NCBI GenBank assembly: GCA_037042915.1
Contig: CM073204.1
Location: 1,054,001-1,118,000, forward strand
Length of the DNA stretch: 64,000 nt
From: Auricularia sp. M13
Lineage: Eukaryota > Basidiomycota > Agaricomycetes > Auriculariales > Auriculariaceae
Reading direction: 5' to 3'
How positions within the stretch are numbered: position 1 is the stretch's first letter; every line of letters starts with the position of its first letter. The position numbers and the translations under genes were made by a program. The notes below the pieces were generated by a model. That model saw only the letters and a list, made by a program, of their open reading frames with translations. It ran no database searches and was not told the origin of the DNA. Below are positions 15,131-43,163 of the stretch, in pieces.

Positions 15131-15792
15131 CATTCATATTTCTTGCTGCTGATCTAATAGACGAGGTGGGCTGCGCCATTCGATGAGTGTAAATCATGCG
15201 TATCATCTTGTCTTTTGACATTGCTGCCATGGCATCGGTATGCTCGAGATACTCAAGACTGCTTTTCCGGCGGTCGGCATGCGGATGCCGCGTCACGCAC
15301 GCGAGAGAATGCACGAGAAGCTGCGCCCAGGAGCACCACATCGATACGAGGCTTATATTCCACCGTGAAAGAATGACCTAGAAGTGCCATACAGTTGCCA
15401 GCGCTTATAGCAGAGCGTCGCAGAGGTCCGCTCGCCTACCCTATTCGAAGCTGTCGCTTTGCGAGAAAGCCCGATACTCCAGTCGGAGAGTGGAAGCTTC
15501 CCACAGAATACCGGCCGCACGCTCGTCGTCCCCCATTTCCCGTCGTTATCCCATCTTCCCGCAGTCGGTGCGCTATTCGTGCCAACAGGCTGGCCCCCCG
15601 AAGTCATCGTCCAGATCTAGATCAAATTATGTATGATCAGGGGGTCTTATGAAGCTTTCAGTTGAGGATCACCTGCGTGACCGAACAGGAAGGCATTGAT
15701 CGATGAGGAATCGGAGCTTAAAGCTTGAAGATGCGACACAGCCTTGGTCTTGACCAACCACCTCTGCACGCTTTTTTAACCACATTCAAGTC
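15131..15792. other. Intergenic upstream of the F-box gene
   Basis: No gene recognised. The final bases before the ATG at 15793 are T-rich (CTTTTTTAACC) but lack a clear TATA box. Confidence 0.4.
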
Positions 15793-17442
15793 ATGCTAGC
15801 GTCTGCGCTCCTCCTTGAATCGGAATTACATGCCATCCGGCTTGTTTTAACACATGCCGCTCGCAGAATCGACGATAGGCAAGCAGTTCCTTGTGAACGG
15901 AAAACCGATGCTCTAGCAATTAATTTTCATTTCAGAAATGACCGGACATCATACGACGATCTGCTAAACGATTTGAACGCTGTCGCGCGCACCATCCTCA
16001 ACAAAGTGCGCGCCCAATCTACAGGTCGCCTACTCCCATCGGAATTACTCTGCCACATTTTCTCCTTGCTACCCTTTTCCAACATGGTTGCTGCGAGCGG
16101 CGTCTGTCGCTCTTGGAGAAATATAATACGAGGTGATCCACGCCTTTGGGCTCGGATAGCGACAAGCTCTGGCGTTGACAATACGGTCTTGCCTGTTTTT
16201 CTCGAGCGCGGCGAAAAGGTTCCCGTTGCGCTCGACATCCACCTAGCGAACCCTCAACCCGCTCTGGCCGAGCTCATTGCTCCACACGTCTGGCGTATTC
16301 GCCAGCTTGTAATTAGCAGCGTGCTTCCAGGAAACGCTTTGCTCCAGTTCGGCTTCGATGCGGATAATGGGCTCGCGCGGCCTGCGCCCTGCCTTCGGCG
16401 GTTCGAAATGCGCATGGGTTGGGAGGCCGAGGACGTTTTATTCGACTCAAACTTCTTCGCCGGCCAGGCGCCTTTACTTGAGGAGCTCTGGCTCGACGTG
16501 GAATGTCAGCCTGTGCTCGGCGCGTTCCAAAGCCTCCGCATCGTGGTGTTGACGCATATGGAGACACAGTCTTTTCAGCTCGCGTGGAACGTGCTATATT
16601 CATGCCCTCTCCTCGAGCATGCTGCTATGCGGGTGAGCAGACGTCGAGACAACATCCTCCCCACATCCTCCCAGCTGCCCTTGCTGCGATTCCTACGAAC
16701 CTTGCGGTTCGGGTTCGATGAGGACTTCGCAGAACCCACCATGGATGACGCTACTCTGTTGCTCATAATCCTCCGACCTGAGGTGCGCGCTAGGACGGAC
16801 GTGACCCTCAGACCGGTCGCAGCGCCGCACGACCTACCCACCGGCAGTACAAGTGTCCTTATCTTGAACACGCCCAGCGGTTTTCCGAACCGGCTCACAT
16901 TCAACCTCCACTCACGCGGGCCCGGCGTCGCAGGCACCACGCGTCGATTTCTGCGCGCCCGTCTTGAGCACGCGCGAACATTCCTCCACGAGCATCTGGT
17001 CGTCTCCGCCGACACTCTGCTCTCGCTCACCGTGCCCGCCCATCTCCTGTCCTTCATCGCCGCTGCGGACCACGTCCGCCTCCCAAATCTCCGCGAGTAT
17101 ACAGTGCTGCTGCACCAGCACCACGTCGTTTTTCAGGCGCGCGGCAAGCAGCTTCTTCTCGACCGCATGCCGGCTCTGCACACATTCACGCTCACGCGTG
17201 CGCGCGCCGCGAACACAATCACGCAGGACGTCGTGGTCGACTCCGTCGCTGTTCTTAGCTGCTTCGCCGTGCGCCGCACTGGCCTCGCACGCATGCGACG
17301 TATGGTGCTATGCGGCATCGAGACGCCGCTGACAGTTGATGATGTGCGGAATTATGTGGACGAGCTCGCGCGCGAGCCGTGGAAGCCTATCGATGGGCCG
17401 CAGTTCGACAGGATAGACGAGTGGCTGTTCGATGCGCCGTGA
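15793..17442 (+). CDS. F-box protein, 549 aa
   Basis: A single long open frame. Residues about 78-125 form an F-box: GRLLPSELLCHIFSLLPFS, then AASGVCRSWRNIIRGDPRLW, the basidiomycete form that binds Skp1 in SCF ubiquitin ligases. The rest (residues about 130-549) has irregular leucine-rich stretches such as LRRFEMRMGW and PLLEELWLDV, likely a degenerate LRR-type substrate-binding region. A CATTTCAG near 15932 could be a splice acceptor of a small 5' intron (GTGAACGG..CATTTCAG, 43 bp), but the frame is open across it. Substrate unknown. Codon use and length look normal and no break is seen. Confidence 0.88.
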   Translation: MLASALLLESELHAIRLVLTHAARRIDDRQAVPCERKTDALAINFHFRNDRTSYDDLLNDLNAVARTILNKVRAQSTGRLLPSELLCHIFSLLPFSNMVAASGVCRSWRNIIRGDPRLWARIATSSGVDNTVLPVFLERGEKVPVALDIHLANPQPALAELIAPHVWRIRQLVISSVLPGNALLQFGFDADNGLARPAPCLRRFEMRMGWEAEDVLFDSNFFAGQAPLLEELWLDVECQPVLGAFQSLRIVVLTHMETQSFQLAWNVLYSCPLLEHAAMRVSRRRDNILPTSSQLPLLRFLRTLRFGFDEDFAEPTMDDATLLLIILRPEVRARTDVTLRPVAAPHDLPTGSTSVLILNTPSGFPNRLTFNLHSRGPGVAGTTRRFLRARLEHARTFLHEHLVVSADTLLSLTVPAHLLSFIAAADHVRLPNLREYTVLLHQHHVVFQARGKQLLLDRMPALHTFTLTRARAANTITQDVVVDSVAVLSCFAVRRTGLARMRRMVLCGIETPLTVDDVRNYVDELAREPWKPIDGPQFDRIDEWLFDAP

Positions 17443-17864: not shown

Positions 17865-19100
17865 TGAGCGGGGTAGCTGAATCCACCTGCGCTGTGCAAA
17901 ATATACGGCCGTCGCGTGCAAGGAGAATAGAGAGTCAAGTTCCTTGTACCAAGGCCCAGGTGACAGTGAATGAAGAGATTGCGTCCTGCAGTCACGGAAT
18001 AAAAGCCGGACGCGATGTCGCGGCAAGAGGACAAGCAGCGGAGGCATATTCCAGCTCCGCACTTCTCCCGGTCACGCTCTTTCCCCCTCTGGGTAACGCC
18101 GCCCGCATAGACGGCCTCGACGACCGATGGGCTCTGTCCACCGGCCTGCTCGGGGAAGATAACCATTAGAACGACCAGAAAAGAATCTCCAGCACTGTGC
18201 GTCCGTTGCAGCCCAGCTGGACGCGGTACTAATGGCGCCACGTGCGATGAGTAGGTACATAGATGCTGAACTCGCCGTCGCCGACGCTGCTGGCGGTATT
18301 ACGAGGTGGAGCGCGTAATGGGCACGCGGCAGTCGCTGAAGCCGTTGACGGACCCGACATGCAGCCTTCGCTGGCCCAATAGCGACGTTGCTAACGGTGC
18401 TGTATCTCCTAACGCCGAACGCTGAGCGTCTGTACCGGATGGCAGTGCATCTGCGTCGCCCAACTCGTACAACGCGTACTTACATACGGCACGCGGCCGG
18501 CCGCCTCCACGTTCGCCCAGTCTGCTCCTGCGCGCGCGCACCACATCGCCGTGCGCCTAACGGATGTATGGCAGCTAACGGCGACGCACGGAGCTCCTTG
18601 CGCTGCGGTTTCGTCTGGCCGCCGTCCCGCCGGAGCAGCTGTCAAGCACACGGACGGCTGGACGTCGATGGCCAGCATGTCAAATTCATTGCGCTCTCCA
18701 TCGCAAGGCCGCGCAAGCACCGTTTCTCCGCCGCCCGCGCCGGCCAATGCAGACGTCTCGGGGTCCGCAACCAACTGCAGCGCTCGGCTTCGACTTCAAT
18801 GTCTACGTCCGCACGCCGCGAGGCCCAAGCCAGCACGGGCGTCGTCTCCCGGTCAGTCTTGCCTGCTACGTGCGACGCCTGGACGTCAGCCACCAGGTTT
18901 CAGCGCTTAGCGTCGACGTCGACGTCGACGCACGCAGACGTGGCAGCAACGCGCCGCCTGTCGCCCGCTCGCCGGCGGCTGGACATCGGCCACCAGCATG
19001 CACAAGAGCTCACGCCGGCCGTCTGAAAGTACAGTGGCTCGAGCCACTGTCCGAGCGGCATTCAGCCCATCAACACCGCTGTATGGGCCGCTGCGATCCC
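17865..19100 (+). pseudogene. LysM-gene relic L1
   Basis: Nucleotide blocks match the other LysM copies: CACGGAATAAAAGCCGGA and GGCAAGAGGACAAGC near 17990-18040 (compare 49020-49070), then LDDRWALSTGLLGEDN, and further on scattered pieces of the serine-rich repeat region (GWTSMASMSNS, SARRE-like stretches). The C-terminal LysM domain is not found, and frame changes are frequent. It is a 5' fragment of the family whose intact member is L4. Confidence 0.6.
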
Positions 19101-19313
19101 CTCGTATAGTTACCATATTCCCCCTAAGCTGTCAAACACGGGGGTAATTTCCATTTTTAGACGCCTCGGACTTGCCAAATTTGGAGCGGTTTAAATACTT
19201 TTGTCCATGTCTCACTCGGCCTTGCGTGACACTTGCGTTGTCTGGCATTTTCTTCCTCAGACTTTCCCTCATGTACTGTCTGGTACGGGTCGACCGAGAC
19301 AAGTAGTGGCCAC

Positions 19314-19320
19314 TATAAAA
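19314..19320 (+). promoter_or_regulatory. TATA box of B1
   Basis: TATAAAA 36 bp before the B1 ATG, with CGAGACA at 19295-19301 just upstream. Confidence 0.6.
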
Positions 19321-19349
19321 GGACAGAGCATTGTCGTTGTTCATGTGCA

Positions 19350-20345
19350 ATGGCCACCTTCCATTTTGACAGCTTCCTCAAGCTGCGCAATCCCTCCATC
19401 ATCATTCCCACGCGACACCGTAAGCCACATGTTCGGATATACTTTTCTACCACGGTGCATGATGGTACGCGCTCCTGGAAGCTTGCGCCGACTCCCGCTC
19501 ATTATCAAAGGTTGCACCTTCGCCGTCTGTGTCACGACGCCATGCGGCTCCAACGACGACGTTTCCATTGTGAATGAGACGTGGGCGCGGGTCGTTGGCC
19601 TGGCGCACGTTGTCTGTGACACTCTTTTTGTGGAAGCAACATCCATCGTTGTCATTACCCGCTCCGAGGAAGCTCGCTTTTCACCCGCGGTGGTCGCTCC
19701 AACCACGGATGCTTTAGCGCGCGAAAAAACTTCCCGCTTTCCGTTCTCGATCTTACAGTGCAGCGCACTAGACGCCTGCCTGCGCCGGTTACAGTGAGGT
19801 TATTGAATTACGTGTCCTTTTTAAACGCAGTACTCACGTCCGTTGCAGATGCCGTGTCGACGACCAAATTGATGCATTCGCCACATTTCGGCATTTGGCC
19901 GCAGGCACAGTCCTTATTATATCGGGCTTGGTTATCAGTGCAAGCAGTGATGCGCTGACTATCGATGTTCGGAAGTTTGAATTGGATGACTGTAACTCTC
20001 GAAGCTCACATCGCGCTCGTGGTCTGTTCTGCTCTGGCCGTACTTGCGTCAGACGACTTGCCTCACGGCTGTGCGTGCATTTTTGTCGAAGTTTCCGCTA
20101 AAGCTAACTGCTTTTCCAGGGTGACGGCTGTGTTAGGTCGCTCGAGATTCGTACAACAGCAAGAGAAGGCTCGGTATGTAGTCCCAGACTTTTCAAATTT
20201 CTTTGGACTGATCTGTGATCTCGCAGACTTGCATTGGTCCATATTCACAGAGCGAGTTTCCGCAACTCCCCAGTTCGGGTTGAATTTTGCTGCGCAGCTC
20301 ATCCTGAAGCTTGCGCGCTGGAGTAAACCTAGGAAGGACCAGTGA
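19350..20345 (+). pseudogene. Family B member B1, probably frameshifted
   Basis: Exon 1 starts MATFHFDSFLKLRNPSI (compare [15 protein letters not shown] in B2). An intron after VHDG leads to FAVCVTTPCG and CDTLFVEATSIVVI, matching the first domain of B2. A run of A near 19722 then marks a frame change to NFPLSVLDLTVQRTRRLP and APVTVR. A second intron leads to AAGTVLIISGLVISASSDA followed by LTIDVRKFELDDC, the second-domain motif of the family. The tail beyond about 20000 cannot be placed. Whether the frame change is real or bridged by splicing is open; I favour a damaged copy. Function unknown. Confidence 0.55.
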
Positions 20346-20500
20346 TAGTTGCTCGACGGACAAGGGCTTCTTTGTGTAATGTAAAGAGATACCGTGTGCT
20401 TGCAATTAGTTTGACATTGCTGTGAGATTGCGAATCCGTGATTCTTCGGTGTCCGTGTACACTTCGGATGCAAAATGTTAAGTGACAGGCCGTGCGAACA

Positions 20501-20506
20501 TATAAG
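20501..20506 (+). promoter_or_regulatory. TATA box of B2
   Basis: TATAAG 41 bp before the B2 ATG at 20542. Confidence 0.5.
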
Positions 20507-20541
20507 CTTGCACTGGCCATGAACAAGCTCGAGCTCTCGAC

Positions 20542-22366
20542 ATGCCCCACTTCCACTTTGACGCGTCGCTCGAACTACGGTCCCCAATTGTCGTCTGCCC
20601 AGGGGCAAACGGGGATCCTTTCTTGCATGTCTACTTCTCCACCATCGACTTTCGCGGTTCGTCTATTGTATGCCTCGGTTGTCGTGATGAAGTATTGACG
20701 TTATACCGGGCAGGCACGGAACTCTCAGTACTCGTGGCCGTCCCAGCTGGTCCAAACACGCGTCTGATCGCGCACGGCACCCACGCGCAAGTTCTTGGGC
20801 CCGCGGACTTCGCGCGCGACACGTTCTACGTTAAAACTCCGCACGTATTTATCTCCGAAAACCCGGTCCGGTCCGACGCGTCACCCTCTCCCCTTCCATC
20901 CCTCGTCTTCACAGGCTCTGTCACTCTTCCCGCGTATGGGGTTTTTGGAGTCGTAGTCGGGCTCGGACAGACATGGGCTCCGGCTTTGACAGTCAGGTGC
21001 GGCATATATCAATCCAGGTCGGACTGGTCTGACCGACGTGGACAGGTGCGAAATCAACAGTGACACCGGGCACGTTAGCAAGTCCGAGCCCCTTGAAAAT
21101 CACGAGAAGGCCAATGTCGCTGGACTGGTGGTGGGCGTTGATGCCGGTACACTCGTCGTTGCCGTCCACGACGCCAAATTCGACAGCAACGAGATTCCCT
21201 GCAACGCTCATTGTCTGCTGCGCTCATCGTTATATCCCATGGCGCCGACAGAGAATTTGTGCGGGTGGTACGTGTGAATGTTGACCTCTCTTTCTTTCTC
21301 TAATTGGCGAGACAGGCTTCGTTCAATTTTGCCTCGTGACGAAGCGGCGGGATCTCTGCCACTGCCTCTGTCTGCTACGCGTGGTTCCCCGCGGGAGGAA
21401 GTGACCAGTCAGCCTACCGTGGTGCCTCAAACGGACGCCGCGAACGACACCGTCCAGTCTTTTTCCGCGTCGTTGCGCTCTTCGTCCATCTCACCTCGCT
21501 ACTCGCCGATTTCGCCTCGCTACTCGCCGACTTCGCCTCGCTATTCGCCGACTTCGCCTCGCTATTCGCCGACTTCGCCTCGCTATTCGCCGACTTCGCC
21601 TCGCTACTCGCCGACTTCGCCTCGCTACTCGCCAAGGTCTCCTGGTTACTCGCCCGCGTCAGGGATGGCCGACAACGTTGCGGATCTCGTCGATGAACCG
21701 CTCGGGTTTGCTCCTGCTCCGCGCATTGTGTCTCGCCGAGCTCCCTGGTCCGTCAGTCCCTCGCCGTCCGTCTTGCCCACTCAACCCGCGTCGCAAGTGG
21801 CAGATGAGGCCGCGGTTCCCATCGGCGAACCGGTTGAGTTTGGATCTACCCCGCGTATTGCATCTGCTTCAGCTCGGTGGGCGGGCACCTCCTCGCCCAT
21901 GTTCTCGCCAACTACGCTTCACTATTTTCCCGCGCCCGTTTATCTATCTATGACACCTCGGTCTTCGTCCCCTGCGGCCGGCACCTCGCAGCCCTCGATT
22001 CGCTCTGCATCAGGACGTACGAGCGGCCCCGCGCAGACTGGAGATGACCACAATGTCGCGTCAAATTGGGTGGAGAGCCATCAACAAGCATTCGACGCTT
22101 TCCTGTACAGCCAGTTCCCGAACCTGGGCCCGCTTGGCGACTGTGGTCGCGCGGACGCGCTGCTTGCGTTACCGCCACTTTCCCAGAGTATGGAGCAGGG
22201 TTGTGCTGCGGTCCCGATTATGGAACCTGATCATTCACCTCCTCTCGAAGACTACCGCGATACGCTCATGTCCGAATCCGAATTTTCCGTCGAAGCTGTG
22301 CCCTCGCGTTCTGCTACCCCGAGACCCTATTACACCGGCTTCCGCGCGACGTCATGTAACTTCTGA
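20542..22366 (+). CDS. Family B member B2, 556 aa, with Pol II CTD-like heptads
   Basis: Four exons (20542-20656, 20714-20996, 21046-21267, 21316-22366) with introns of 48-57 bp give an intact 556-aa protein; phases agree. Domain 1 (residues about 1-130): [60 protein letters not shown]. Domain 2 (about 135-205): [19 protein letters not shown] followed by [13 protein letters not shown]. The last exon is a Ser/Pro-rich, low-complexity tail; residues about 265-320 are YSPISPR, five [14 protein letters not shown] and YSPASG. YSPTSPS is the Rpb1 CTD heptad. The family is not one I recognise. The exon joining the tail is confirmed by B7, which splices at the same point (CGW/CKW before the tail). 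Inferred nuclear. Confidence 0.75.
21488..21655 (+). repeat. 21-bp coding minisatellite, about 8 units (CTD-like heptads)
   Basis: Tandem 21-bp units of the form TACTCGCCGACTTCGCCTCG plus C, differing mainly at TAC/TAT and ACT/ATT. Each encodes one YSPxSPR heptad in the tail of B2. The near identity of the central units suggests recent slippage or unequal crossing-over that kept frame. Confidence 0.9.
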
Positions 22367-22532
22367 AGGCCTTCCTGTCTGCTCGTCTTGCTTCTGATAT
22401 TACATTTCTGTTTCATGTACACTTTCAACGCCATGTACGTAGTTGAGATGATGTTATAAATTGATTGTATGTTCGCTGGGCAAATTACGTTCGATTTGAA
22501 ACGGCAGCCTGCGTAAACGCGCGTGTGACCCG

Positions 22533-22618
22533 TGTCTCATGTCAGCAGTCCCAGACAACTTCTGTGGTGCTTCGAGAGTCAAGCACCAAAGTGAGACAGC
22601 ATGAATTTGCCTATATAA
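22533..22618 (+). promoter_or_regulatory. H1 promoter: TGTCTCA, TGAGACA and TATATAA
   Basis: TGTCTCA at 22533-22539, its inverse TGAGACA at 22592-22598, and TATATAA at 22612-22618, 34 bp before the H1 ATG. Confidence 0.5.
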
Positions 22619-22651
22619 CCCGACTTCTTCCATCATTTATTTTTCCAAACC

Positions 22652-23116
22652 ATGGCGCCTCTGTACGAGATAATGCCTCAGTATTTCCTGGAATCCCATT
22701 TCGGGCATCCCTTAAGCAAGTTTAGCGACTTGCCTGCCAGCGAAGTGCCTTTGAACCTACTACAGGTATGATCTCTGTTGCATGACCAAGCGTCCATGGT
22801 GATAATCCAGATCTAGCTGCAATTGTCTCTCAAGAATCCATTCGCTGGAAGTTGGCTTCCACCTGTGAATATCAGTGAAGAAGGCGAAGTTTCAGTCGAT
22901 AATCCGCGACAATGGATCGAACAGGGCAGTGCGGATGGCTTCGATCTCCGAGAGCAGTTACTCGATATTAAACCGATTATCCGTCATGTTGCCGAGAGGC
23001 ACTTGCAGGAGTTGGAAGAGACAGGTCGCCAGGACCTTGAGGGACATAAAACTTTTTACAAAAAATTCGAAATCAGTTCGCTTGCACTCGTGGAGTATCT
23101 ACTCGCTTTCCTTTGA
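22652..23116 (+). CDS. Family H member H1, small helical protein, 137 aa
   Basis: Two exons (22652-22765 and 22817-23116) around a 51-bp phase-0 intron. It begins MAPLYEIMPQYFLES. After the intron comes LQLSLKNPFAGSWLPPVN, then NPRQWIEQ and a long helical part ending FEISSLALVEYLLAFL. H4 shows the same plan: intron, then YFVLGNPVVGLGLPHV and NLANWIQ. No signal peptide or known domain. It is intact and sits between B2 and B3. Function unknown. Confidence 0.65.
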
Positions 23117-23868
23117 GCAGCCCATGTACATACTATAATCTGAGGGCACTTTGTTGCATTCAGGAAGACTAGAACATAATATCATTCTGCACTGTTTGCA
23201 CTACATGCATGACAAAGAACTCGTACCTCCTCCTTCTGCGCCCGGCTCGTCCATATCGTCTGCGTGGCGCAGGGTGACCTCCCGCAGACACGCGATAAGT
23301 GTGGCTGACTCGGAATTCGCAGCTAACGCGACGACGTGTCAGCCCTCGCCGCCACCGTCTCGCTCACACAGTCTGCCGGGCGCGTCGCGTTGGGATCTTC
23401 GTGCGCGCCACGTGAACATATGTGCGCATGCGTCGTTCGCGCTGCTTGGCTCCCGTGCGCACGGTCAATGGCGCGCATGATTCACGTAGCATCTGGAATC
23501 ACCCAGTGATAGGGTGGAAGTGCGGGTTGTTCCAGTGATCCATATGATTGGCCGCGGCGCTAAGCCTTCCCGTGCTGGCTGGCTGCATGGACGTCGGCGT
23601 CAGGGAGGAGAGCAGAGCTGGTAGCGGAGTTAGAATGATCTATGCGCGCCGCGCGGTCTTGCTCTGATGGAGTGAGACCTTGACACAACATAGTCTCCTT
23701 TGTCTTAGTTGTGCTTCCTGAGACTGGTGACGAGGAAATGGGGCCAAACGCGGTGTCTCATGGGCAGGATTCCAGACTCTGCGCTAAGTCCGCTCAGGTT
23801 TATAAAGCTCCCTGTTTTTCTGCTAAAGCACCATACTCTCACTCAACAGCTGACATATACTCGCACAC
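23117..23868. other. Intergenic between H1 and B3
   Basis: The open frame 23151-23480 (109 codons) has no recognisable motif and no family counterpart. The end of the interval is the B3 promoter. Confidence 0.4.
23754..23807 (+). promoter_or_regulatory. B3 promoter: TGTCTCA and TATAAAG
   Basis: TGTCTCA at 23754-23760 and TATAAAG at 23801-23807, 62 bp before the B3 ATG. Confidence 0.55.
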
Positions 23869-24899
23869 ATGACGTCCTTCCTGCTTAGCGGCTACTTCGG
23901 TCTTGCCAACGGCCGTCGCGTATCATCGGAGAACCCAAACACGCACAAGACCACGCATCATGTTCTGTATGATACGGTCATTCAGACCAGTGGCGTCGAT
24001 GTCTCTGCTGAGATCAGGACTTGGTCTCCCGCCAATGAAGCACTCCTGCCAGACGGGACCGTTGCGGACATACTCGGGAAGGTGTACGCGCCTCCTAACG
24101 GCACGATGTGGATTGATGTCATCCATTTGGCCGCATTTCCGGGAGATGCGTCTTCTGCGGATTATGAAGATAGGATTCCTGAACGACCATTCCCGACCTT
24201 TTTCGTGCTCGGACATACCAGTAGCATCCCGGAGACAATGGATGACACAGCCTCCGTTGGTTACTCTGTGACAACGTCCGACTACGTCCGTGATCAGGCA
24301 CGTTCGTCGCGCGTGTAGTAAGCAATTATTCATCTAGCAATGGGGACTTTATCTTACCTGAAGATAGCTGTCGTTTTGATGGAGGAAAACCGCGTTGGAA
24401 GAAAACACCGCGTCCGCAGCCGGGCGTGCCTGTTTTCGTCATTGGACTTGCGCATGGGCTTCATCTTGCAAGCGGTAATCTGTTGATAGACGTGGACCAG
24501 GTTCAGCTCAACGTTGGCGGGACCTCAAGCTCTGCGTCTGCTGCGCGAGCGGAATTGGGAGGTGCACCGGCGAAGCGTAGAAAGTTTCCGCTGAGTTCAG
24601 TGACTCCTGCCACCAAGTCAGAGTCAGGAGGGTGAGTGTGAGCTTTTCATTGCTTCGCAGCTTCCTAATGTAGAAGTATCTCAGCGCAGAGACCCAGCAG
24701 GGAACCGCGGTAGCAGATGAGGTGGTCCTCCCTCCGCCAGACCAATCTTTGGAATCGAGCGGGAGCGCGTAAGTACACGAAGTGGACCTGATTAGATCCA
24801 ACTTTCTCACTATGCTACAGGTCTGGACGCCGGTCTGTGGCTAAACAGCGGAGGGCTGTAAAGAGGAAGCTGGTGATTGATGAGGCAGAGGAAGAATGA
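23869..24899 (+). CDS. Family B member B3, basic C-terminus
   Basis: Exon 1 (from 23869) starts MTSFLLSGYFGLANG and contains LLPDGTVADILGKVYAPPN, MWIDVIHLAAFPGD and PFPTFFVLGHTSSIPE, matching domain 1 of B4-B6. It ends near TSDYVRDQ. An intron near 24311-24361, whose borders are not certain, leads to the domain-2 motif PVFVIGLAHGLHLASG, LLIDVDQVQLNVGG. Two further phase-2 introns (donors after 24632 and 24768) enclose an 84-nt exon, and the last exon encodes AKQRRAVKRKLVIDEAEEE, a basic cluster followed by an acidic SIM-like end. Probably nuclear by inference. No break seen. Confidence 0.65.
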
Positions 24900-25680
24900 G
24901 ATCTCTGTGTCCCTCGAATTTGATAGTGATGGTCTCTTGCGAATTGGCAGGCTCTTGATGTCAATGTACATATTGCGAAACCTCCGTGAATACCAGGCTC
25001 ATAAGCAGCTATGATCTAATTCTGAACCTATCCTCTATTCAACACGGGCATAGTCAGCGCCAAGACGATCATGATGGTGGCAGGAGTCTCATATGCTGTA
25101 TATGAGACAATGTTGTCTACAAAACTTCATCTGAGACATTAAATCCTTGACAGGTAAAGACCACAGGCTGAGGTCATATATACCACGCCTGCGGGAGGTA
25201 AATTCATGGCTTCCCATATGTTCAGTGAGATTTTCCGGCAGCACGGTAGTATTTTGTGTGAGCGAAGTCGCTACTGTGCAACATTGCGCCTTTGCCTTGA
25301 GAATGTAAGAATACACATATCCTTTCCTCAAATATAAGAGCTGAATGTCCTAGAGAGTGGTACTTCGGATAATAATGGTGACGACTGATGTGCCAGAACT
25401 GGTTGGCAGTCTCATGGAGTTCGCGGTCGAGGATAGTGTACCTTGCTTCTTTATAATGCCAACATCCGTGCTTCACAGGCGTTAAAATAAGTACATATAA
25501 TTGGAGAGAAATCGAATGACGTGAATATACAGAACACAATTCTGTCTCGCGCGTGTCATATTGGCGCGGGAGACGGGGTCGGATGTAAACCGTGTCGAAC
25601 TCCGACACTTGCTCGCTCCCACAGTATAAATGGTTTGCTCAAGACCCATCCGCCTGCCCAGATCGCTTCCTCTCTCCCGC
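24900..25680. other. Intergenic between B3 and H2, with a TGTCTCA-type palindrome
   Basis: No gene recognised. GTCTCATAT GCTGT ATATGAGAC forms an inverted repeat at 25086-25108, the same core as the promoter motif of this gene set. The H2 promoter (TATAAA at 25625-25630) closes the interval. Confidence 0.5.
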
Positions 25681-26208
25681 AATGCGCTGTGCTCAGACAT
25701 ACGGTGCGCAGCTACGCTCTTGGCAACGTCTGTGCTTGGCTCAGTCTGCACCCTGCAGGTTGCCGTTGCGCGCTTCATCGCGAGCAGTCCTTCGCCGTCA
25801 AGTCGGCCAATGACTATCCGCTGCAGGCTCTTTATGTGCGTAAATTACTACCGCCTGCGTTCTATGTGCTCACTTTTGTGTTAGTGTTACTACGCAGAGC
25901 GCTGCAGTAAATCCTGCAGCGGTCTTCCCTTCATCGATTGGGGCCGCATTCAGCAGCCTCGGTACCCGCGCACCTGGGCTGCTCGCGCTTTTCGGCGCCT
26001 CCCACACATTAGCATTCTTCGCAAACGCCTGAGGCATGCCCGCAGGAGGTTGTTCGGCTTGGAGTTTGATGTGCACATGGAGCTTGCGTCGTCTTCGCGT
26101 GCGGACCGTACTGTCCGTCGCCACGCCGAGTTTTTCGAGTCTTGGATGGAACATCTTCATGCCTTCCTTGATGACGCAGATGTTGCATTGTCCCGCCGCT
26201 CGGTGTAG
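25681..26208 (+). CDS. Family H member H2 (partial model)
   Basis: The second exon is clear: SGLPFIDWGRIQQPRY, PRTWAARAFRRLPH, then RRLFGLEFDVHMELASSSR and HAEFFESWMEHLHAFLDD, ending RRSV at about 26207. Order and spacing match H1 and H4 (LP..., W, long helix, aromatic-rich end). An intron with GTGCG donor near 25840 precedes it. The first exon is uncertain: an ATG at 25681 lies 50 bp after a TATAAA, but the frame leading into the intron is not settled. Function unknown. Confidence 0.45.
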
Positions 26209-26621: not shown

Positions 26622-27693
26622 ATGCTGTACATCGACACTCAAATCGACCTCTTCAAGCCCACATTATCCTCGGTGGAGTCTGGTGGAGGCAGCCACTGCG
26701 CTACGTATCTCTCTGAGTTGGTGATGAACAGTATGTCATTGAGCCTTGCCCTGTGCACATGAGCCTCATATTTCACAGACGACGTCTTCCCTGTGACCGT
26801 GGCTCTTCCCCTGCAGAAGCCCGATGCCAAGTTGCTGCCGTCCGCCACCAACGCACATCTTTCGGGATGCTTCAGCGTCGTCGGCAGATCGATCTTGGTC
26901 ACTGCTTGCGAGCTGATCCCTCTCTATGTCGCTACAACACCCTCCACTCGCTCGGCGGCTGCAGCACTGTACGAGCCGTCGTTGACTGTCACCGGCGTTG
27001 TGTCATCTGGTCGCATCGTTGACCTTGGCAATCCCGCTGCTGTTGTTGTCGATCTGACGTGTGACAACTCGGATCGTTGGCCTTATAAACCGACGGTCAT
27101 CAGGTAGATCGTTTTCTCCTCGGAGGTTCTGTCGCTAATTTGCCATTTTGCAAGATGCTGCTTTAACAGGGATGAGAAGCGGTTCCGTACTCTCATTCCT
27201 CTGGTCCGCGACATGCCCTTGATTGTATGCGGCAAACTATTCGGCTGGGCCGACGACAAACTCGCAATCGATGTGCATGAGATTCGGTGCAACAACGTCG
27301 GCCTTTCACCCGAAAGGCCTCTCGCAATGTTTCCCAGCCCGTTTACACGCTGCAGCTTTGTCAACGACTACGCTGTGTTGGCCGAGGCTCCTCCGGCCTA
27401 TAGTCCAGGTCCTGTGACTATTCCCGAGTACGTTGTTAAGTTAACTTTGCCGGAGAATATGGTAGCTGACGGTCCACAGGGAAGACGATATTCCAATCGT
27501 TATAGATGTATCGGATTCCGAGGATGATAATCCAAGCGCCTGCTTGGATTCAGTTCCGTCTGGAAACAAGTTGCTCGCCGAGCGGGCGATCACCGATCGA
27601 GTCATTCGCTCGCGCCGACGCTATACTAAGAGCCCACACCCCCGGAGCCCCTTAGCTCAAGCTGCAACGATTTCCGACCTTGCATCTCAGTAG
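26622..27693 (+). CDS. Family B member B4, 301 aa, with two SUMO-interaction-like motifs
   Basis: Four exons (26622-26730, 26779-27103, 27170-27427, 27480-27693) with introns of 48-66 bp; phases agree and give an intact 301-aa protein. Domain 1: LPLQKPDAKLLPSATNAHL, SILVTACELIPLYV, SLTVTGVVSSGRIVDLG. Then AAVVVDLTCDNSD at about residue 125. Domain 2: RDEKRFRTLIPLV, PLIVCGKLFGWADDKLAID, EIRCNNVG. The last exon opens EDDIPIVIDVSDSEDD, then SRRRYTKSPHPRSP. Both VVVDLT+acid and IVIDV+SDSEDD have the form of SUMO-interacting motifs. Close paralogue of B5 (LLITASTLIP, LAGVVSSDTR). Inferred nuclear; biochemical role unknown. Confidence 0.75.
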
Positions 27694-29105: not shown

Positions 29106-29523
29106 ATGACCTTTCGAAAGCTGGAAAACTCCGTAAGTAATTCCGTTTAATCCGCATTTGATTACACACCGATCCTCTTAGCAGTATTTCCTGTCGCGCA
29201 CGCCGGCTGTTGTCGGTAATCTGCCCAGGATCAATATCCGGTTGATGCATCGTCGTACCTATGTGAAAGCGTGGGTTCAGCATGCTATACGAACCGTTAG
29301 ATGCGTGCACGAGGTCCTGGCGCGCCTGCATCACATGCAGGTGATCTACGAGGGTATAGGTGGATTAATGCTCCACGAAGTCTGCCAGCGCGATGTCAGT
29401 GCAAAGAAACTACATGCGGCATGGTCGAGAATCAATACCTGGTTTGCAGATCACATTGTGTTCTTCGAGACTGCTGTTTCACTTTGTTACGGATCGTGCG
29501 AGCATTGTACCGAGCGCCCCTGA
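29106..29523 (+). CDS. Family H member H3, 121 aa
   Basis: A short first exon (29106-29132, MTFRKLENS) and a second exon (29185-29523) around a 52-bp phase-0 intron. Exon 2 reads YFLSRTPAVVGNLPRINIR, RTYVKAWVQHAIRTVRCVH, then GIGGLMLHEVCQRD and INTWFADHIVFFETAVSL, and ends with a small cysteine group CYGSCEHC. The NLPRI..W block matches H5 and H6 and the LP..W block of H1 and H4. No known domain; predicted helical. Intact. Confidence 0.65.
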
Positions 29524-29603: not shown

Positions 29604-30083
29604 ATGTCCGCGTTACTGAACAAACGAGCTTTGCGCGCACGCCTGTTGCGTGCCATCGACCGCTTTGTCAACTTGGATGTAGACGTAGTTCCGCGCAATC
29701 TTTTACCTGTAAGATTATGAAAGACTGATAAATCATCTCATCGACATTACGAGCAGGCTTACTTCGTTCTCGGTAATCCAGTTGTAGGTCTTGGTCTTCC
29801 ACATGTTATGTGCGACCCTGCTGGCTTTGTGTCTGTTCGAAATCTTGCCAACTGGATCCAGCTTTCGCGAGAGAGATGGGAGAATCTGGATGAAGTTCTG
29901 GAACTTAGCATGAGGAGGTTGGAATGTTATGTGGAGCGTCACATCAAACGGTTAAAGAGATCTACAATAGCGAACATTGATCTGTTAGAACGCCATGATA
30001 TTTTGGCAACGTGGACTTACAGTATGACCGCCTTTATCGAATTAATAGAGTCCTGCGAGTGGCATCACAAGAGGGCGCATTGA
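29604..30083 (+). CDS. Family H member H4, 143 aa
   Basis: Two exons (29604-29708, 29757-30083) around a 48-bp phase-0 intron give 143 aa. It begins MSALLNKRALRARLLRAID, and the first exon ends VPRNLLP (H1: VPLNLLQ at the same place). Then AYFVLGNPVVGLGLPHVM, NLANWIQLSRERWENLDEV, YVERHIKRLKRST and ATWTYSMTAFIELIES. Intact, no known domain, predicted all-helical. Lies directly downstream of H3 on the same strand. Confidence 0.65.
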
Positions 30084-30931: not shown

Positions 30932-33900
30932 ATGGTGTCATCCCTCGCATCAGTAGACGACACGTGGAAGGTCGCCCGTGTTCTGAAAAACACGCTGTGG
31001 TGGGGTAAGAACAAGCGAACACAGGCACCGAACCATTGCCAGTACTGTGGCATAGAGCTTCTCACCGGCGAATCGTCTGGATTTTGCTGCGGACCCGGTG
31101 GAGAGAAATTCAACGACGTTGAACCACTCCCACCACTTCCTGACGAGTTTACGACTTTCCTAGGAGATCCTAGAGTTTCATCGCTCTCGCGCACTCTGAA
31201 TCTCATATATACGTTTGCACAGTTAGAATCAACTGCTCAATTTCCGGATTACGGTGGCATGCCCGCTCATTTTGCTGTGCAAGGCCGTATCTACCATCGT
31301 GTACGTCCCGATCATACAAATTCCGCCGTGCGTTGGCTTTTGTACGACGGGTTTATGCAAGGGAGGGCTCCACACACGGGCGCGGGGTGGTTCCAGCTCT
31401 TGCCGCAGGAATGGATTGATGCCCTTGGTGCCGCATTACTACGTGTTAACCCTTATGTGCACTATATCAATGTATTTAGACAAAGCCGTGAGAGCGATTT
31501 GCCAAACGTGCAACTACTCATACGTGAAGCGGGTACCAATGAGATTGCTGGGATCATGTGCTTCGAGAACACGATCGCTTCCGACGTCAAGGTAATGCTG
31601 ACCACTACTCTCGGCGAACAGTATTAACAGGCAAAATAGTTGCGGTCCATTATTATATCAAAGAAACGCGAGCCACAGGCGGGATTTGTGGATGATGTGC
31701 GCAGAACGCAGCGCAATGTACATTCAATCTCCGCTGTCAACCGTTTCTGGGAGCCGCTCGTCTATCCCCTTTTTTTCCCACACGGCACGTTGGGCTGGGG
31801 ACGAGCAGCGCGACGGCCTGCTATAGGGCTAGACTCCAATGACGACGATACAATTACGAGCCAGCTCTGGCATTGCCGCGCTCGACTTCTGCGCGAGGAT
31901 CGTTTTGCGGTGTTCGGCCGTCTGACGAATGAATATGTTGTCGACATGTTCACGCGAAATATTGAGTCTAGACTGGCGTACATTCGCGCGGGTCAGCTCG
32001 CTGCTCGCCGCGAGGATGCTGCGTTGATGGGCGTGGACACGCACTGCGAGCAGGAAAACGTCTTTCTTCCGGCGTCGTTTCTTGGCTCAAATGCTTGGTG
32101 TTCAGAGCAGATTGCAGATGCACTGACTATTGCTGCTAACTGCGGCGTGCCGCGTTCTTCATTACGATGACCTGCAACCCGACTGGCCTGAAATTCGCGA
32201 AAAGCTGCGCCCGGGTCAAAATTGGTCTGACGTTCCTATTGTGGTCGTGCGAGTATTCAAGCAGAAACTTGCTGTACTGCTCAAAACCCTCAAGACGATG
32301 TTTCCCAATGCCGGGCGAGTGGTGCGTGTTCTTTTTCTCATGGTGCTCGTTTACTAATTTACTACATTCAGGTGTACCGACTATTCGCCGTCGAGTTTCA
32401 GAAAAGAGGCTTACCGCATTGCCATATTCTGATCAAATTCGAGAGGGACTGCTTGGCGCCTAGCGATGTCGATCGCATAGTGTCCGCTGAAATGCCTCAA
32501 AATTCGTCGGACGCGGCCTTGGTCCACCGCTTCATGCGTCATAATCATCCCAGCGCAGATGAACTACCTGAGTACTGTCAGCCGAAAGCGCGTCGCTTCG
32601 CCTACGCCGAACCCCTCCCTCCAAATCTCTGTCGTTTCGGTTATCCCAAAGCCATGCAGGAAACCACGACGTTCGCATTTGACGGGCGGCCGCAGTATCG
32701 TCGACGTAGTCCTGCGGACAGCATGGTAGTACCTCACTGCCTGCCATTGCTGCGCGCTCTTGAATGCCATATCAATTTCGAGGTTGCAAATTCATCCCAT
32801 ATCTTTCAATATCTTTTCAAGTATATCCGAAAGGGTTCGTGCATTACGTTCAGTAGTTGTGAGCCCGTTGGCTGATTGATCTCTAGGCGTGGACAAGGCG
32901 CACGTGCGTCTGCGCCCCGATGGTACAGAGGTTGTCGACGAAATTGACAACTATTGGCGGGCGCGTTATCTGTCCGCTGGTGAAGCTGCCTGGCGCATCA
33001 TGGGATTCCATGTGTCGAGCAAATATCCCGGTGTCACAGGCCTACCCATCCATTTACCAGCGTCACGAAAACACCGTCAGTATCAGCGCGCGCACGGGCC
33101 TGTCAGTAACTTTTCTCTCTTGGACCGCTATTTCCACCGGCCTACTGGAGTTTTTGTGTCTGGTCAGGAGACTCTGTCCTTTGCCGATCTCACATACACG
33201 GAGTTCTATACCAGATTTCGTCATATACCGTGGGATTCGCGGCTGCTCAATAATCCTGGTGTCTACCAAGAATCTGATGTGCTCGACGGCGATGTCACAA
33301 GGCTGGTCTTGCAGCGGACTGAGATTCACCGTCATTTTGTACGTGTTGCCTCTGTGAAACCTTCTCAGGGCGAACTTTTCTATCTACGAGCCATTCTTCT
33401 CAATCGTCCGGCGAGTTCCTTTCTCGACGCGCGCACGTTTGGCACGGTGGTGTATCCGACGTACCAAGAAGCTGCGCAGTCTATGGGCCTGTTTGCTGAT
33501 CGGAACAAGGCAAATTTTGCACTCCATGAGGCCGTACAGTCCCTCAGAACGCCGCGACAGATCCGTTTGCTCTTCGTTCACCTCATTGTGCACGATTCTG
33601 GAGAGGTCGACTTCCCCTTGAAATTATGGGAACTGTTCCGTGACGAGCTGAGCATGGATTTTTATTATGACAACGGAGGTTCACGAACAGCGGCTTACTC
33701 GAGGGCTCTGCAAGAGTTGGCGCTTATGCTCGAGGAGTTTGGCCGGAGCCTAGACGACTTGGGATTGCCTCAACCCACTTCGTTTGTGGGCAAGGTCGCG
33801 TATGAGCTTGACAGATGGGCTCCCCACCTTATCAAGTTCAGAAACAACGTCGCGGCAGCCGTCCCGCGATTGACTGTAGAGCAGCGGGAGATTTTCAACC

Positions 33901-35281
33901 AGGTGGTCGATGCAATAGAGAATGACCGACCTCTACTGCTATTCATCGATGGGAAGGCTGGACGTGGAAAAACCTTCCTTATCAATGTTATCTGCGATTA
34001 CGTTCGTTCCAGGAGCGAAATTGTACTTCCCACTGCCACATCTGCATTTGCTGCGCTTCTATATGAAGGCGGACGTACGACGCATTCATGCTTCAAGGTA
34101 TGTTATTATCATCTGCTCAAAAGCCTGCTGATAGAGGCTTTCAGATACCTGTTGATGAAAATAATGAGCTGCTCTGATCACCGATCGAGCAGGGCGACTC
34201 CCGCGCCCAACTACTACAGGAGTTTCGCGTCCTCATATGGGACGAAGCTCCTATGGCTAATCGGGCTGCCTTGGGGTGTGTGGAAGAGACTTGCCGGCGT
34301 GTTACGGGCGACACTCGACCCTTTGGAGGGAAAATCGTCATTCTTGCGGGCGATTTCAGGCAAACATGTCCTGTGGTTCGTCGCGGGACTCGTGCTCAGG
34401 TGGTCGATGCCTCTATTCGCCGTTCGCCACTCTGGAATCTCTTTACCATCCGGCGCCTCACTATCCCAATACGCAACGCGGACGACATTGAATACTCCAC
34501 ATGGGTGGATTCCATCGGGGATGGCGCTGGTCCGCAGGTTCCTTTGCATTTGCTGCGGCATGTCCAAACAGAGGAGGAGATGATCGATTTCGTCTATCCT
34601 CAGGAAGTTATCAACAATCCGAAGGCGTGTCTAAAGAGGTCAATTCTCTGCCCCACGAACAGACAGATAGATCGCTACAACGCTCAGATCCTTGATCGCG
34701 TTGCCGGCGTGGCACGAACTTATCTATCTGCGGACAGGATCAAGGAGGAAGAGGAAGCCGGCATGCCAGAACGCGGAATTGCGTCTCTAGACTATGCGGC
34801 GCGCGCTCCGATACCTGGACTTCCCGGCCATTCCGTAACAATCAAGACTAATGCCGTTTTTCGACTCTTGCGCAATTTTTCTATCTCCCGCGGGCTCGTC
34901 AAGAACGTCAGAGTCGTAGTCATGGATGTGGGAGTGCGCTTGATCACAGTCCGTGTGCTTAGGGACACTGTGGCTGGTGTTGCGATCGACGAGGAAGACA
35001 TCCTCATTCCGCGCATTACCTTCGAGACATTCCTGCCTGAAACTCGAAGAACGTTGCAACGACGTCAATTTCCTCTAGCTCCAGCCTACGCCACGACATT
35101 CAACAGTTGCCAAGGCTTGACACTGGATGTTGTGGCTATGGACTTATGTCGACCTGTCTTTTCCCACGGGCAACTGTACACCGCGGTTTCGCGGGTGAGA
35201 CGCCGCGAGCATGGAATCGTTAGACTTCCCGGTGGTCAGGATAGCGCGGAAAATGTAACATATACCGAGATACTATTATAG
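30932..35281 (+). mobile_element. Helitron RepHel coding region, decayed
   Basis: Rolling-circle DNA transposon. The protein begins with a CxxC...CC finger (HCQYCGIELL, GFCCGPGG), then the Helitron-like N-terminal domain (FWEPLVYPLFFPHGTLGWG), the HUH-type Rep block (EFQKRGLPHCHILIKFE) and YLFKYIRKG. The PIF1-type helicase has Walker A DGKAGRGKT, Walker B LIWDEAPMAN, GDFRQTCPV and CQGLTLDVVAMDL..YTAVSRVRR. Introns are visible at 31592-31639, about 32326-32371, 32837-32886 and 34099-34144. Two frame changes lie around 32150-32200 (FFITMTCNP versus DWPEIREKL) and an in-frame TGA at 34175. So it is probably inactive but recently so. I could not place the TC 5' end or the hairpin-CTRR 3' end. Confidence 0.85.
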
Positions 35282-35820: not shown

Positions 35821-37613
35821 ATGTCATCCTTCCAGATCACTTCCATCGTAGTCTCCTTCACAGACTTTGACGTTCGAAGATAATCGTTCGAAGTAAAGTC
35901 TGCATTAGATCGCGCCCCCCTGATAGCGAGTCCCCAATTCGGCTCAATCCGTGATGGCTCCGGCGGAGAAATTAATTCGAAAATATTTGTTCTCCCTTAA
36001 CTCTCTTGCAGAACCTCAACGAAGCGCATCTGAATGTTTTAATGGTTTACTCAACCACACATAACGCATTTGGGCGATGGTTTTATGTGACGGACATGCG
36101 GAACGGTAGGAGGATGGTTATCCGGCGCTTATCGGTTCGGGCCGAGCAAAAAATCGAAAAATGCAGAAACCGTCCGCCTCCGTTGACGGAGCAAAGATTA
36201 ACATTCCATTCGCTTATTATATGACTTAGTTAAATTAATAAGATGGTTTTGAGTCCCGAGACTCGCTGAATAGCGTGCCCAACGAGCGCGTCGAGGTCAC
36301 GTGCATCACGGCCATCACCGAATTGGGGACTCACCATCAGGCAGGTGTAATCTAATACAGACTACTTCCATCGTGGTTGCTCTCTACGAGCCCGAGCGCA
36401 TCCCAGCCGACTTTGTGGGCCTGAAGGGCTATAACATTTATCATGCAACCCTGCCACTGCACTGTGCGTGTTTTTCCACTGGCTAGGAATTACCTCGCTC
36501 AGCGAAGCCAGATTCGGACATCCCCATTTGCATTGCGCATCGGACTTTGAAGAAACCATGCCCTCCTGGAACAATCGCGCGCATCCGAGGTTCCGGCGCC
36601 ATCGCCGACAGGACCTTGCTGATTACGGCGTCCACGTTGATCCCTGCAGCCATCGAGCCCGTCCCTGGTCCGCTGCCCCCGCGCTTTCATTGCCTTCCGA
36701 GGTTGTTCTTGGCCGGGGTCGTGTCGTCAGACACCAGATCAATCTCGGGCACCGTCAACTGCTTCAGCTTCGACGTCACCATTGACCGGCCAGATATATG
36801 GCCAGGCGATCAATTGACGGTGTCGTGCGTGTCGTATCTCGATATCTATTATACAACTAACTATTCTTCAGTTGCTGGGTCCATAGAGACCAGGAACGGT
36901 TCTCGCTTCTGGAGTCTATGGTTCCCAATACGCCAGTTCTTATTGCAGGACTTGGTTGCGGATGGACATGGGACGACAAACTCATCGTCGACGTGTACAC
37001 CATAAGCTACAACAACGAAGGTCCACCGCCTCGAACACACGCCACGGATCCACCCAACCCGTTCAGCCGTGCCATATTCAAGGACTCCTTCCCAACGTTC
37101 CCACCTCTGCGTTATGACAGCTCTGACCGGCACAGTCTGCTGGCGATGGATGCTCTTCCCACCAGGTCCCGTCCGCCGTCACCAGTGTATGACGCCGCCT
37201 TGGACCCACGGCTGTCTACCAAGCACGCAGCTACAGCTCCTTCGACTCAGAATTGGTACGTGGAATCCGAGACTGATTGAGAGCCCCTGTTTAACGTTCA
37301 TATTCGCATAGTATGTTGTCTGCGACGGATGACAATGACCCCGCCGTGGCGGCCGTTCAAGTCGCTGGCCCGCCCGACGAAGTTGAACACTGCGAGGATG
37401 TCTCTGGCAATGCTGCGCGCAAAAGCGCTCGCACGGCCGCCGTGAGAAAATTGCGCTCTCGAGTCACACGCATTCGTCGCTCCTCGCGCACGTCTTCTCC
37501 CGACGTCCCTCTCCGCAAGCAGGTCAAACTCAAGATTACCTCAAAGCAACTTGCGTAAGTTTCACCGTCATATATTCATTGTATTCTTATGCACATGCAG
37601 TACTCTTGCCTGA
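35821..37613 (+). CDS. Family B member B5, first exon interrupted by an insertion
   Basis: MSSFQITSIVV at 35821 is followed by an inverted-repeat element. ACTTCCATCGTGGT then recurs at about 36364 and reads on as TSIVVALYEPERIPADFVG. Later exons give GTIARIRGSGAIADRTLLI, RLFLAGVVSSDTRSISG (domain 1, close to B4), then DQERFSLLESMVPNTPVLI, GWTWDDKLIVDVYTISYNN (domain 2). The tail has PPSPVYD and a strongly basic stretch AVRKLRSRVTRIRRSSR, ending after a last small exon (TLA, stop at 37611-37613). Apart from the insertion no break was seen. The insert might be spliced out or might inactivate the gene. Confidence 0.6.
35851..36363. mobile_element. Candidate DNA transposon (MITE-like) in B5
   Basis: Imperfect inverted repeats at 35898-35958 and 36311-36362 share GTCTG(C/T)ATTAGAT, CCTGAT(A/G)G and GAGTCCCCAATTCGG in opposite orientation. 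The host sequence ACTTCCATCGT(A/G)GT occurs on both sides (about 35837-35850 and 36364-36377), compatible with a target duplication of about 14 bp, which is long for a MITE. Inside is a 70-codon frame (NLNEAHLNVLMVYSTTHN) with no known match. Family unknown; the outer borders are tentative. Confidence 0.45.
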
Positions 37614-37881: not shown

Positions 37882-38714
37882 AGGTAGACTCGACGAGGGC
37901 ATGTGCTAGCGCGTGAAGCACTGCGCAGGTCAGTGCGCCCTCGTCCACGAACGCCAAGCCACAAACGCGGCAAGTAACCCGCACATGAGGCGTTTATGCA
38001 GGAGATTTCTGAGTGGCGTATCCAGAACGTGCATGCACAGCTGGAGAAAGCCCAACCAGGTCCGTCCCAGCTACTGCAACCTGCCCGCTGCCAGTCTTGG
38101 TGGAAGCGAGTTCAAGGTCGACGTGTAAGGGTATAGGTTTTGTGCCTATATCCCTGTGGGTTTCTACGGTCCTGACGACGACAGCGACGCTGCGTTAAGA
38201 CAACGACGACAGCGAAATCGGCCATGAATTCTGGGGATGAATGCGGCTACGCAGACGAAGCTGCTGGAAGACAGCATGAAGAGATGTGTGCGCCATAGTA
38301 TCGGCGTGCGGGAAAGACGATGCCGCCCATGGAGCACGCGCGCATGGTATTCGGACCCGTGACGCTGAACACCATCTTGAATAGTTGGAGGCGAATACGC
38401 GAGGCTTTGCACTTGCGGTGAACGGTATTCGCATTGAAGTGAGCGGAGCATGTGCTGAGTTGGAAACCGTCTTGCTCTCGACCACCCCGGCACGTGGACA
38501 CATACCTTTTGATAACTGCCTCGGGGTCCCGGGGCTTGCGCACCTGCTGGTACCTTGCGGTGTGCAGGTGTCTGCCGTAGGCGCCACTCGATACGGGTCC
38601 CATGCTGCGTATAACTTCCATGTTTCGTACAAGCTCAAATGCGCCCTCCAGCAGGCTCAAATGCGGTCGCCATAAAGCCCTGGGCTGGGTTACAACCTCG
38701 GGCCCCTCCCCAGC
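37882..38714. other. Intergenic between the RPA1 fragment and B6
   Basis: Minus frames at 38195-38638 and 38247-38660 (about 140 codons) have no recognisable motif and no splice model. Nothing else supported. Confidence 0.35.
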
Positions 38715-41268: not shown

Positions 41269-41528
41269 GCGAACATATTTTATCTGCATCTTATCGCCTT
41301 CTGCCGCTTCCTCTCCTACCCGCGTCCTTTTTTTGCTCGTTTCCTGTTCTGCCCGCTTCCTCTCTCTACCGCGCACCATGAACATCGAACTCGCTGTCCG
41401 TCCAAAACGTGTTGCGCCGTAGGCTTGGTCAAGTGTGGACTATAACATGTCAAAAATCGTATTGTGTGTTCATGCCCATCGCGAACATGGCTCCAAGTGA
41501 ACATCCTAACATCATGTGTTTGTAGCGA

Positions 41529-43157: not shown

Positions 43158-43163
43158 TATAAG
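43158..43163 (+). promoter_or_regulatory. TATA box of B7
   Basis: TATAAG 42 bp before the B7 ATG at 43205; the motif variant TGTCTGA lies at 43101-43107. Confidence 0.5.

Follow-up and report, generated by a model that had tools for sequence, protein, structure and literature searches.

Evaluating a 64,000-nucleotide stretch of the Auricularia sp. M13 genome (contig CM073204.1, positions 1,054,001 to 1,118,000, hereafter the window), we found that an accessory gene of a large Helitron, B2, encodes a tail of tandem heptads resembling the C-terminal domain (CTD) of the RNA polymerase II subunit Rpb1, and that tails of this kind recur in diverged copies of the element elsewhere in the genome. 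The original prediction, made from the sequence alone, had described the heptads, a four-exon gene, arginine at heptad position 7 and 21-bp steps of length change; that reading of B2 is supported, its further idea that the tail could recruit CTD kinases, capping or splicing factors is a hypothesis, and what it missed was the Helitron setting, in which B2 is an accessory gene. Because the tail recurs in diverged Helitron copies, its likely meaning shifts from that of a host regulator to that of a transposon-encoded mimic, and its likeness to the CTD suggests that the element may plug into the host transcription machinery.

The repeat itself is as follows.

21482–21655, plus strand: 21-bp array encoding the CTD-like heptads, identified from TRF, PF05001, codons and PDB matches

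Across this interval TRF reported a 21-bp period with 8.3 copies and 90% matches, and the in-frame peptide reads YSPISPR, then YSPTSPR five times in a row, then YSPRSPG, flanked on both sides by an incomplete unit. The tally is thus six exact YSPxSPR and seven YSPxSPx units, such that the "about eight" heptads first counted are right as the length of the array, made up of the six exact units together with variants and partial ends. The heptads are real, and they score as CTD repeats in two separate resources: the Pfam model for the Rpb1 C-terminal repeat (PF05001) gave 52.3 bits over 7 stretches of the array against a cut-off of 20.3, and the 362-aa open frame holding the tail exon returned 20 PDB matches at E ≤ 0.01, 19 of them Rpb1 or CTD peptides and the remaining one a Cdk7 entry matched over a short stretch (residues 4–29). 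A chance run of heptads is ruled out by shuffling, with the pattern [YF][ST]P.[ST]P. occurring 7 times in the array and twice elsewhere in the window's six frames (one of these with a terminal stop) and 50 base-shuffled controls giving a mean of 0.76 and a maximum of 3. Likewise ruled out is an Rpb1 pseudogene, as no polymerase domain was found in the three B2 frames scanned with Pfam, where PF05001 alone exceeded its cut-off; the proposal of CTD-like heptads in a protein other than Rpb1 is borne out.

Whether these heptads are translated depends on the gene model, for which two features matter.

20542–22366, plus strand: B2 gene, with predicted exons 20542–20656, 20714–20996, 21046 or 21061–21267, and 21316–22366, encoding 556 or 551 aa

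21316–22366, plus strand: B2 tail exon (exon 4), Ser/Pro-rich, holding the heptads and ending in ATSCNF

The model came from listing the GT/AG splice sites that follow the ATG at 20542, and both four-exon versions are open, as are those using the alternative exon 3 donors 21258, 21264 and 21273. We favor donor 21267 because its GT splits the exon 3 Trp codon between TG and G, a split common to all seven B-family members in which that Trp was located (a count that leaves out B1, B3–B5, L042, L043 and L047), and because the exon that follows begins MRS in B6 and in a copy on contig C7 and LRS in B2. On this comparison, a coding array reached by splicing from 21267 to 21316 is supported, and the predicted four-exon structure with it. 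The junction between exon 3 and the tail, on which the original prediction had staked itself, is likewise supported by the comparison among members, 21315/21316 being the putative boundary of intron and exon 4. An untranslated repeat was rejected on the strength of the common Trp splice together with the same peptide in paralogs, and the other open frames across the array were set aside on the same grounds, namely that the B frame runs on from the Trp splice and that its peptide is kept in paralogs. Judged by composition, the tail is probably disordered, and its C-terminus (ATSCNF) resembles the ends of other B tails (CSCSF, YSCSF, SSCAF, SSANF, SSAKF). Two further matches in exon 3 were taken as chance: Flavi_NS2B (E 0.054, below cut-off) and, for the exon 3 profile against PDB, 10 rows at E 0.01–0.98 headed by lumazine synthases.

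The element that carries B2 was delimited by comparison with a second copy on contig C1.

19097–44729, plus strand: Helitron of 25,633 bp, beginning TCCCCTCGTATAG after A and ending GGTTTTCCTTG before T, junctions placed against the C1 copy

19097–19158, plus strand: conserved 5' terminus of about 62 bp, with 12 genome matches at 82–100% (window and C1 copies counted)

30933–35281, plus strand: RepHel gene region of several exons, limits set by eye, with Helitron_like_N and PIF1 helicase

Window positions 19095–26152 are 99.0% identical to C1 and positions 43149–44730 match it at 99.4%; the two copies, which are those in which both ends were compared, diverge where GA meets TCCCCTCGTATAG at the 5' end and where GGTTTTCCTTG meets T at the 3' end. 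The first 68 bp, searched in parts, gave 12 genome matches with the two copies counted, 8 of them beginning at position 1, and the base preceding the 5' TC was A in all six loci read among these 12. At the other end T follows CTTG in both copies, and a duplicated flank is absent by eye. The element thus has the 5' TC end, the insertion between A and T and the lack of target duplication expected of a Helitron, and it also encodes a Rep (HUH) and PIF1-type helicase protein: PF14214 (Helitron_like_N) scored 29.5 bits on 31640–32167 (cut-off 28.9) and 23.1 bits, under cut-off, on 32231–32872, PF05970 (PIF1 helicase) scored 73 and 92.5 bits in the RepHel region, and the HUH residues themselves were recognized by eye. 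Its 3' end is CTTG and not the canonical CTRR, as is also described for HELPO2 of Pleurotus ostreatus (PMC4289320), and the last 40 bases, evaluated for a 3' subterminal hairpin, fold weakly (−6.0 kcal/mol). Helitron2 is described with an inverted repeat shared by its two ends (PMC5148889); the ends of the present element, searched for such a repeat, showed neither an exact match of at least 8 bases nor a convincing inexact one. We therefore class the element as a Helitron of the CTTG-ended variant, not of the strict canonical form. The ends of the C1 copy lie 77 kb apart (C1:8379020-8456505) against 25.6 kb in the window, with about 52 kb of extra DNA inside.

Comparison of the two copies across the B2 region (20501–22400) revealed one missing base (at 21443), one 42-bp gap and four substitutions. 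The gap falls inside the array of the C1 copy, which has two units fewer than the window, and the suggestion that the minisatellite may still be changing length gains from this pair, 99.0% identical over 7 kb and differing by exactly 42 bp in the array. The base absent from C1 belongs to exon 4 and precedes the heptads, so either the array there is no longer in frame with the beginning of that exon or the assembly is in error at this base.

Besides RepHel and B2, the element contains B1, B3, B4, B6 and perhaps B5, the gene A1 and several small unclassified genes.

19350–20345, plus strand: B1, B-family paralog adjoining the 5' end, limits by eye (B profile 4.2e-8)

23869–24315, plus strand: first exon of accessory gene A1, with a predicted OB fold of SSB/PriB/RPA type

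26622–27660, plus strand: B3, B-family paralog, limits by eye

36487–37560, plus strand: B4, B-family paralog with limits set by eye, found by the B profile on 36487–37002 at E 1.2e-8

43205–44624, plus strand: B6, B-family paralog lying at the 3' end, its exon 2 sharing 52% identity with that of B2

The B profile was built without B1 and B4, and it gave E 0.059 and then 0.035 for the possible B5 at 38.7–39.5 kb. The tail of B6 is Ser/Pro-rich and lacks YSPTSP heptads. By eye, and with approximate limits, the small genes are alike in layout (about 22653–23116, 25682–26208, 29106–29523, 29625–30081, 41664–42238 and 42460–43000), and positions 38676–41275 hold the B5-like gene followed by a long run of apparent very short exons, partly repeated at 40.4–41.0 kb. 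Elsewhere in the window we observed an F-box protein frame (15754–17439), a 1458-aa polyprotein frame of a Copia-type LTR retrotransposon with gag, integrase and RVT_2 (53416–57789), and a LysM-domain frame on the minus strand (58903–60651).

What the accessory proteins may do was approached through structure prediction. A1 has 21 genome matches; leaving aside the window and C1 copies, nine of them are full-length (59–76% identical). At three of the 12 places that match the 5' end (C5, C7:3570 kb and C2:3024 kb), an A gene lies no more than about 360 bp further on. Modeled by AlphaFold with 12 relatives, A1 is all-beta (mean pLDDT 73.8, pTM 0.63), and Foldseek against PDB gave a best E of 2.3e-3 at probability 1.00 with none below E 0.001, TM-scores by query length of 0.34–0.48, and SSB, PriB, RPA or Stn1/Ten1/CST names on 45 of the best 50 rows. 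On these models A1 is most likely an OB-fold single-stranded DNA (ssDNA)-binding protein. Neither A1 nor its 12 relatives matched a Pfam family, and the B frames scanned gave none of RPA/SSB type, the heptads being all that exceeded cut-off in the scanned B exons, and a PDB sequence search with A6 gave no match. For B2, exons 1–2 read through intron 1 gave an AlphaFold model too poor to interpret (pLDDT 44.8); RPA, CST, Stn1-Ten1, SSB or PriB names fill 29 of its best 50 fold matches, every one at E ≥ 1.5. The B profile ranks A1 as the top non-member among 1015 window ORFs (E 0.011, the best reversed-ORF control reaching 0.1), and hhalign gave A–B homology a probability of 0.6%, which is not significant; nor were its comparisons of A6 with A2 and of A2 with A3. 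At the level of sequence a relationship between A and B is thus only suggestive, and B2 exons 1–3 probably form OB-type single-strand-binding domains like those predicted for its sister A1.

We then evaluated how widely the tail recurs, the search space being one genome of this lineage (52 Mb, 14 contigs). RepHel similarity was found at at least 11 loci outside the window, a lower bound from 38 of 128 candidates scored, and the window brings those considered to 12. Eight of the 12 have, no more than about 14 kb away, a B gene bearing one or more CTD-like units.

Window, C3:2420 kb, C5:189 kb, C2:2074 kb, C1:5419 kb, C9:2644 kb and C7:2125 kb: RepHel loci with a CTD-like B gene by PF05001

C7:3612 kb: RepHel locus with a CTD-like B gene by reading, one unit

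The C2, C1, C9 and C7:2125 kb copies are near-identical and were counted as one lineage, and the C1:8454 kb copy, the window's twin, bears a tail too and stands outside the 12-locus count. PF05001 revealed none near the other four RepHel loci (C1:5319, C5:3977, C6:1587 and C2:4256 kb), of which the pattern scan covered C2 alone (L042). By pattern, regular units number 7 in the window, 4 at C5, 3 at C3, 2 in the four-copy lineage (from its C7 and C9 copies) and 1 at C7:3612 kb, with 5 read in the C1 copy, and exon 2 identity to B2 falls from 52% in the C7 member of the four-copy lineage to 36% at C5, 35% at C3 and 34% at C7:3612 kb. Genome-wide, 13 of the 24 PF05001 matches are in B genes, 9 in Rpb1 (C5:2523 kb) and 2 elsewhere, these last being a 43-aa frame at C1:2238 kb (19.5 bits, under cut-off) and a match at C2:2879 kb that exceeds the cut-off only jointly with its neighbors. 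The frame at the latter site (C2:2878001-2881000, 1244–1738) spans 165 aa; its YSP/TSP units are irregular, part of it is charged and may form a coiled coil, and by eye it is not a B protein.

Within the recurring tails, YSPTSPR and close variants are kept, in different codons, in copies whose tails otherwise differ by eye, and the C5 and C3 copies largely retain both the seven-residue phase and a Tyr or Phe at position 1. We regard the persistence of the seven-residue unit in otherwise unalike tails as a stronger argument for selection than pN/pS. Compared in register between lineages, the units gave pN/pS of 0.26 (B2–C5), 0.25 (B2–C3) and 0.52 (C5–C3), against 0.54–1.28 with the register shifted by 1–6 codons. 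These ratios carry little weight because units within an array are non-independent, the arrays were recognized by their peptide and shifting pairs unlike residues, and also because B2 against host Rpb1, a pair with no established common origin, gives 0.32, nearly as low (C5 0.43, C3 0.49). Random back-translations fall somewhat short of the codon identity seen between B lineages (reached in fractions 0.048, 0.045 and 0.011 of simulations), as common descent would give.

In the host polymerase, the CTD (C5:2523048-2523551, minus strand) has four consecutive YSPTSPR followed by YSPQSPN and another YSPTSPR. Arginine at position 7 is thus common in the CTD of this host, in line with the earlier remark that it occurs in natural CTDs, and the commonest B2 unit equals one of the heptads of the host's own Rpb1. 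This identity fits mimicry, and it may also reflect shared composition.

Taken together, our leading interpretation, which we hold at a little short of even confidence, is that B2 is an accessory protein of a large, basidiomycete-type Helitron (a rolling-circle transposon), that its N-terminal part is probably an OB-type ssDNA-binding module, and that its tail mimics the host CTD in its Arg7 variant and would serve in docking. What the computation establishes is that the array lies in a Helitron, that its heptads are, by comparison, coding, that it recurs in diverged copies and that its length differs by 42 bp between two of them; ssDNA binding by B2, phosphorylation of the tail, recruitment and benefit to the element are what we infer. 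Mechanistically, the OB part would bind ssDNA, either that of the Helitron or that of the target site, and host CTD kinases would phosphorylate the tail, and/or the tail would mix with CTD condensates and CTD readers. The Helitron nucleoprotein would in this way be tethered to transcribed, open chromatin, where tethering might aid copying, insertion or expression. The fuller evolutionary claim, that a transposon lineage evolved and kept its own CTD copy fused to an ssDNA-binding protein, docking rolling-circle transposition onto the transcription machinery and following the host's YSPTSPR, we consider possible rather than probable. The poor domain model of B2, the modest fold matches of A1, the merely suggestive A–B relationship, the weakness of the pN/pS test and the frame shift (or assembly error) in the C1 tail all count against the leading interpretation. 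It is also weakened because B6, the element's 3'-most B gene, is without heptads and because 4 of the 12 RepHel loci are without a detected CTD-like B gene.

The most serious competitor, which we judge unlikely, is a neutral minisatellite, in which a Ser/Pro-rich disordered tail expanded by 21-bp slippage and its CTD likeness is coincidental and functionless. Whole-unit differences between copies, the spread from 7 regular units to 1 among lineages, the heptad-free B6 paralog and the out-of-frame C1 copy would all be at home under such slippage, and the low B2–Rpb1 pN/pS leaves that test of little use against it. It sits poorly, however, with the persistence of YSPTSPR and close variants in different codons within tails otherwise unalike by eye, and with the near-confinement of PF05001 to Rpb1 and B genes, the 2 of 24 matches outside them being one under cut-off and one above it only with its neighbors. 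Distinctly improbable, in our judgment, is a tail that serves as a generic substrate of proline-directed kinases (CDK/MAPK) or as a positively charged DNA-contact tail, without CTD-specific factors; SP motifs and Arg7 are, from general knowledge, compatible with both of these roles and the B6 tail is Ser/Pro-rich though heptad-free, but generic SP sites need neither the heptad phase nor the Tyr1/Phe1 largely kept at C5 and C3. Helitrons are known gene capturers, and host Rpb1 carries the same YSPTSPR run, such that the B tails might descend from a piece of the host Rpb1 CTD taken up by the element. We think this very improbable, and reject a recent capture, since the B2 codons are no nearer to Rpb1 than chance: 64% of random back-translations match an Rpb1 unit at least as well as B2 does at its best, leaving no DNA trace of capture, and Ser2 is TCG in B2 against AGC or AGT in the four YSPTSPR units of Rpb1 (flanks compared by eye), even if an old capture would accommodate the raised mean similarity of C3 units to Rpb1 units (reached by 1.4% of simulations) and Pleurotus Helitrons are described with genes called captured (PMC4289320).

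Returning to the mimic interpretation, the combination of a transposon accessory protein with a host-like heptad array in several diverged copies looks new. No case of a transposon CTD-like repeat, heptad or mimic appeared among the matches listed in our literature search (subscription papers, preprints and fungal proteomes being outside its scope); "YSPTSPR" was absent from the literature searched, and within it Helitron, CTD, heptad and RNA polymerase II co-occurred only in a transposon database for Cicer (chickpea). Through the heptad tail, a rolling-circle transposon would be tied to host transcription in a concrete, testable way, one that bears on the reason that some Helitrons are so rich in accessory genes and on how their insertion sites are chosen. 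If the interpretation is true, B2 would stand out among proteins other than Rpb1 for the completeness of its CTD mimicry and be a natural tool for studying a short CTD array freed from the polymerase, and docking would amount to targeting of open chromatin or to use of CTD-bound capping, elongation or repair factors.

Among known systems, the nearest basidiomycete elements by description are HELPO1 and HELPO2 of Pleurotus ostreatus, reported as Helitrons with an AT target, HELPO1 having genes of unknown function (1–4 cap genes) and HELPO2 none, with listed sizes up to 13.7 kb (PMC4289320). The element shares with them the basidiomycete host, the AT target and, with HELPO2, the CTTG end, and it differs in size (25.6 kb against at most 13.7 kb listed), a comparison made by description and not by sequence; the text of that paper has 0 occurrences of "RNA polymerase", and its HELPO description does not mention a CTD-like repeat. 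Plant Helitrons (e.g., the Mothra family) are described as encoding RPA-like ssDNA-binding proteins (PMC4683698), to which the predicted ssDNA-binding accessory genes here are comparable; unlike the plant genes, A1 and its 12 relatives are without a Pfam model, and a CTD tail goes unmentioned in the excerpted plant description. Compared with the Rpb1 CTD itself (PF05001), B2 likewise has tandem YSPTSPx in its C-terminal part, down to the YSPTSPR of the host, but it lacks a polymerase domain, has 7 regular units only and uses codons no nearer to the host array than chance. Finally, yeast Sen1 and Trf4 carry NIM motifs, described as CTD mimics bound by the Nrd1 CID (PMC7110113, PMC4186968), and B2 resembles them as a non-polymerase protein imitating the CTD in a disordered region; whereas their motifs, as described, are short, belong to host proteins and imitate the CTD in its phosphorylated form, B2 has a heptad array and is the protein of a transposon.
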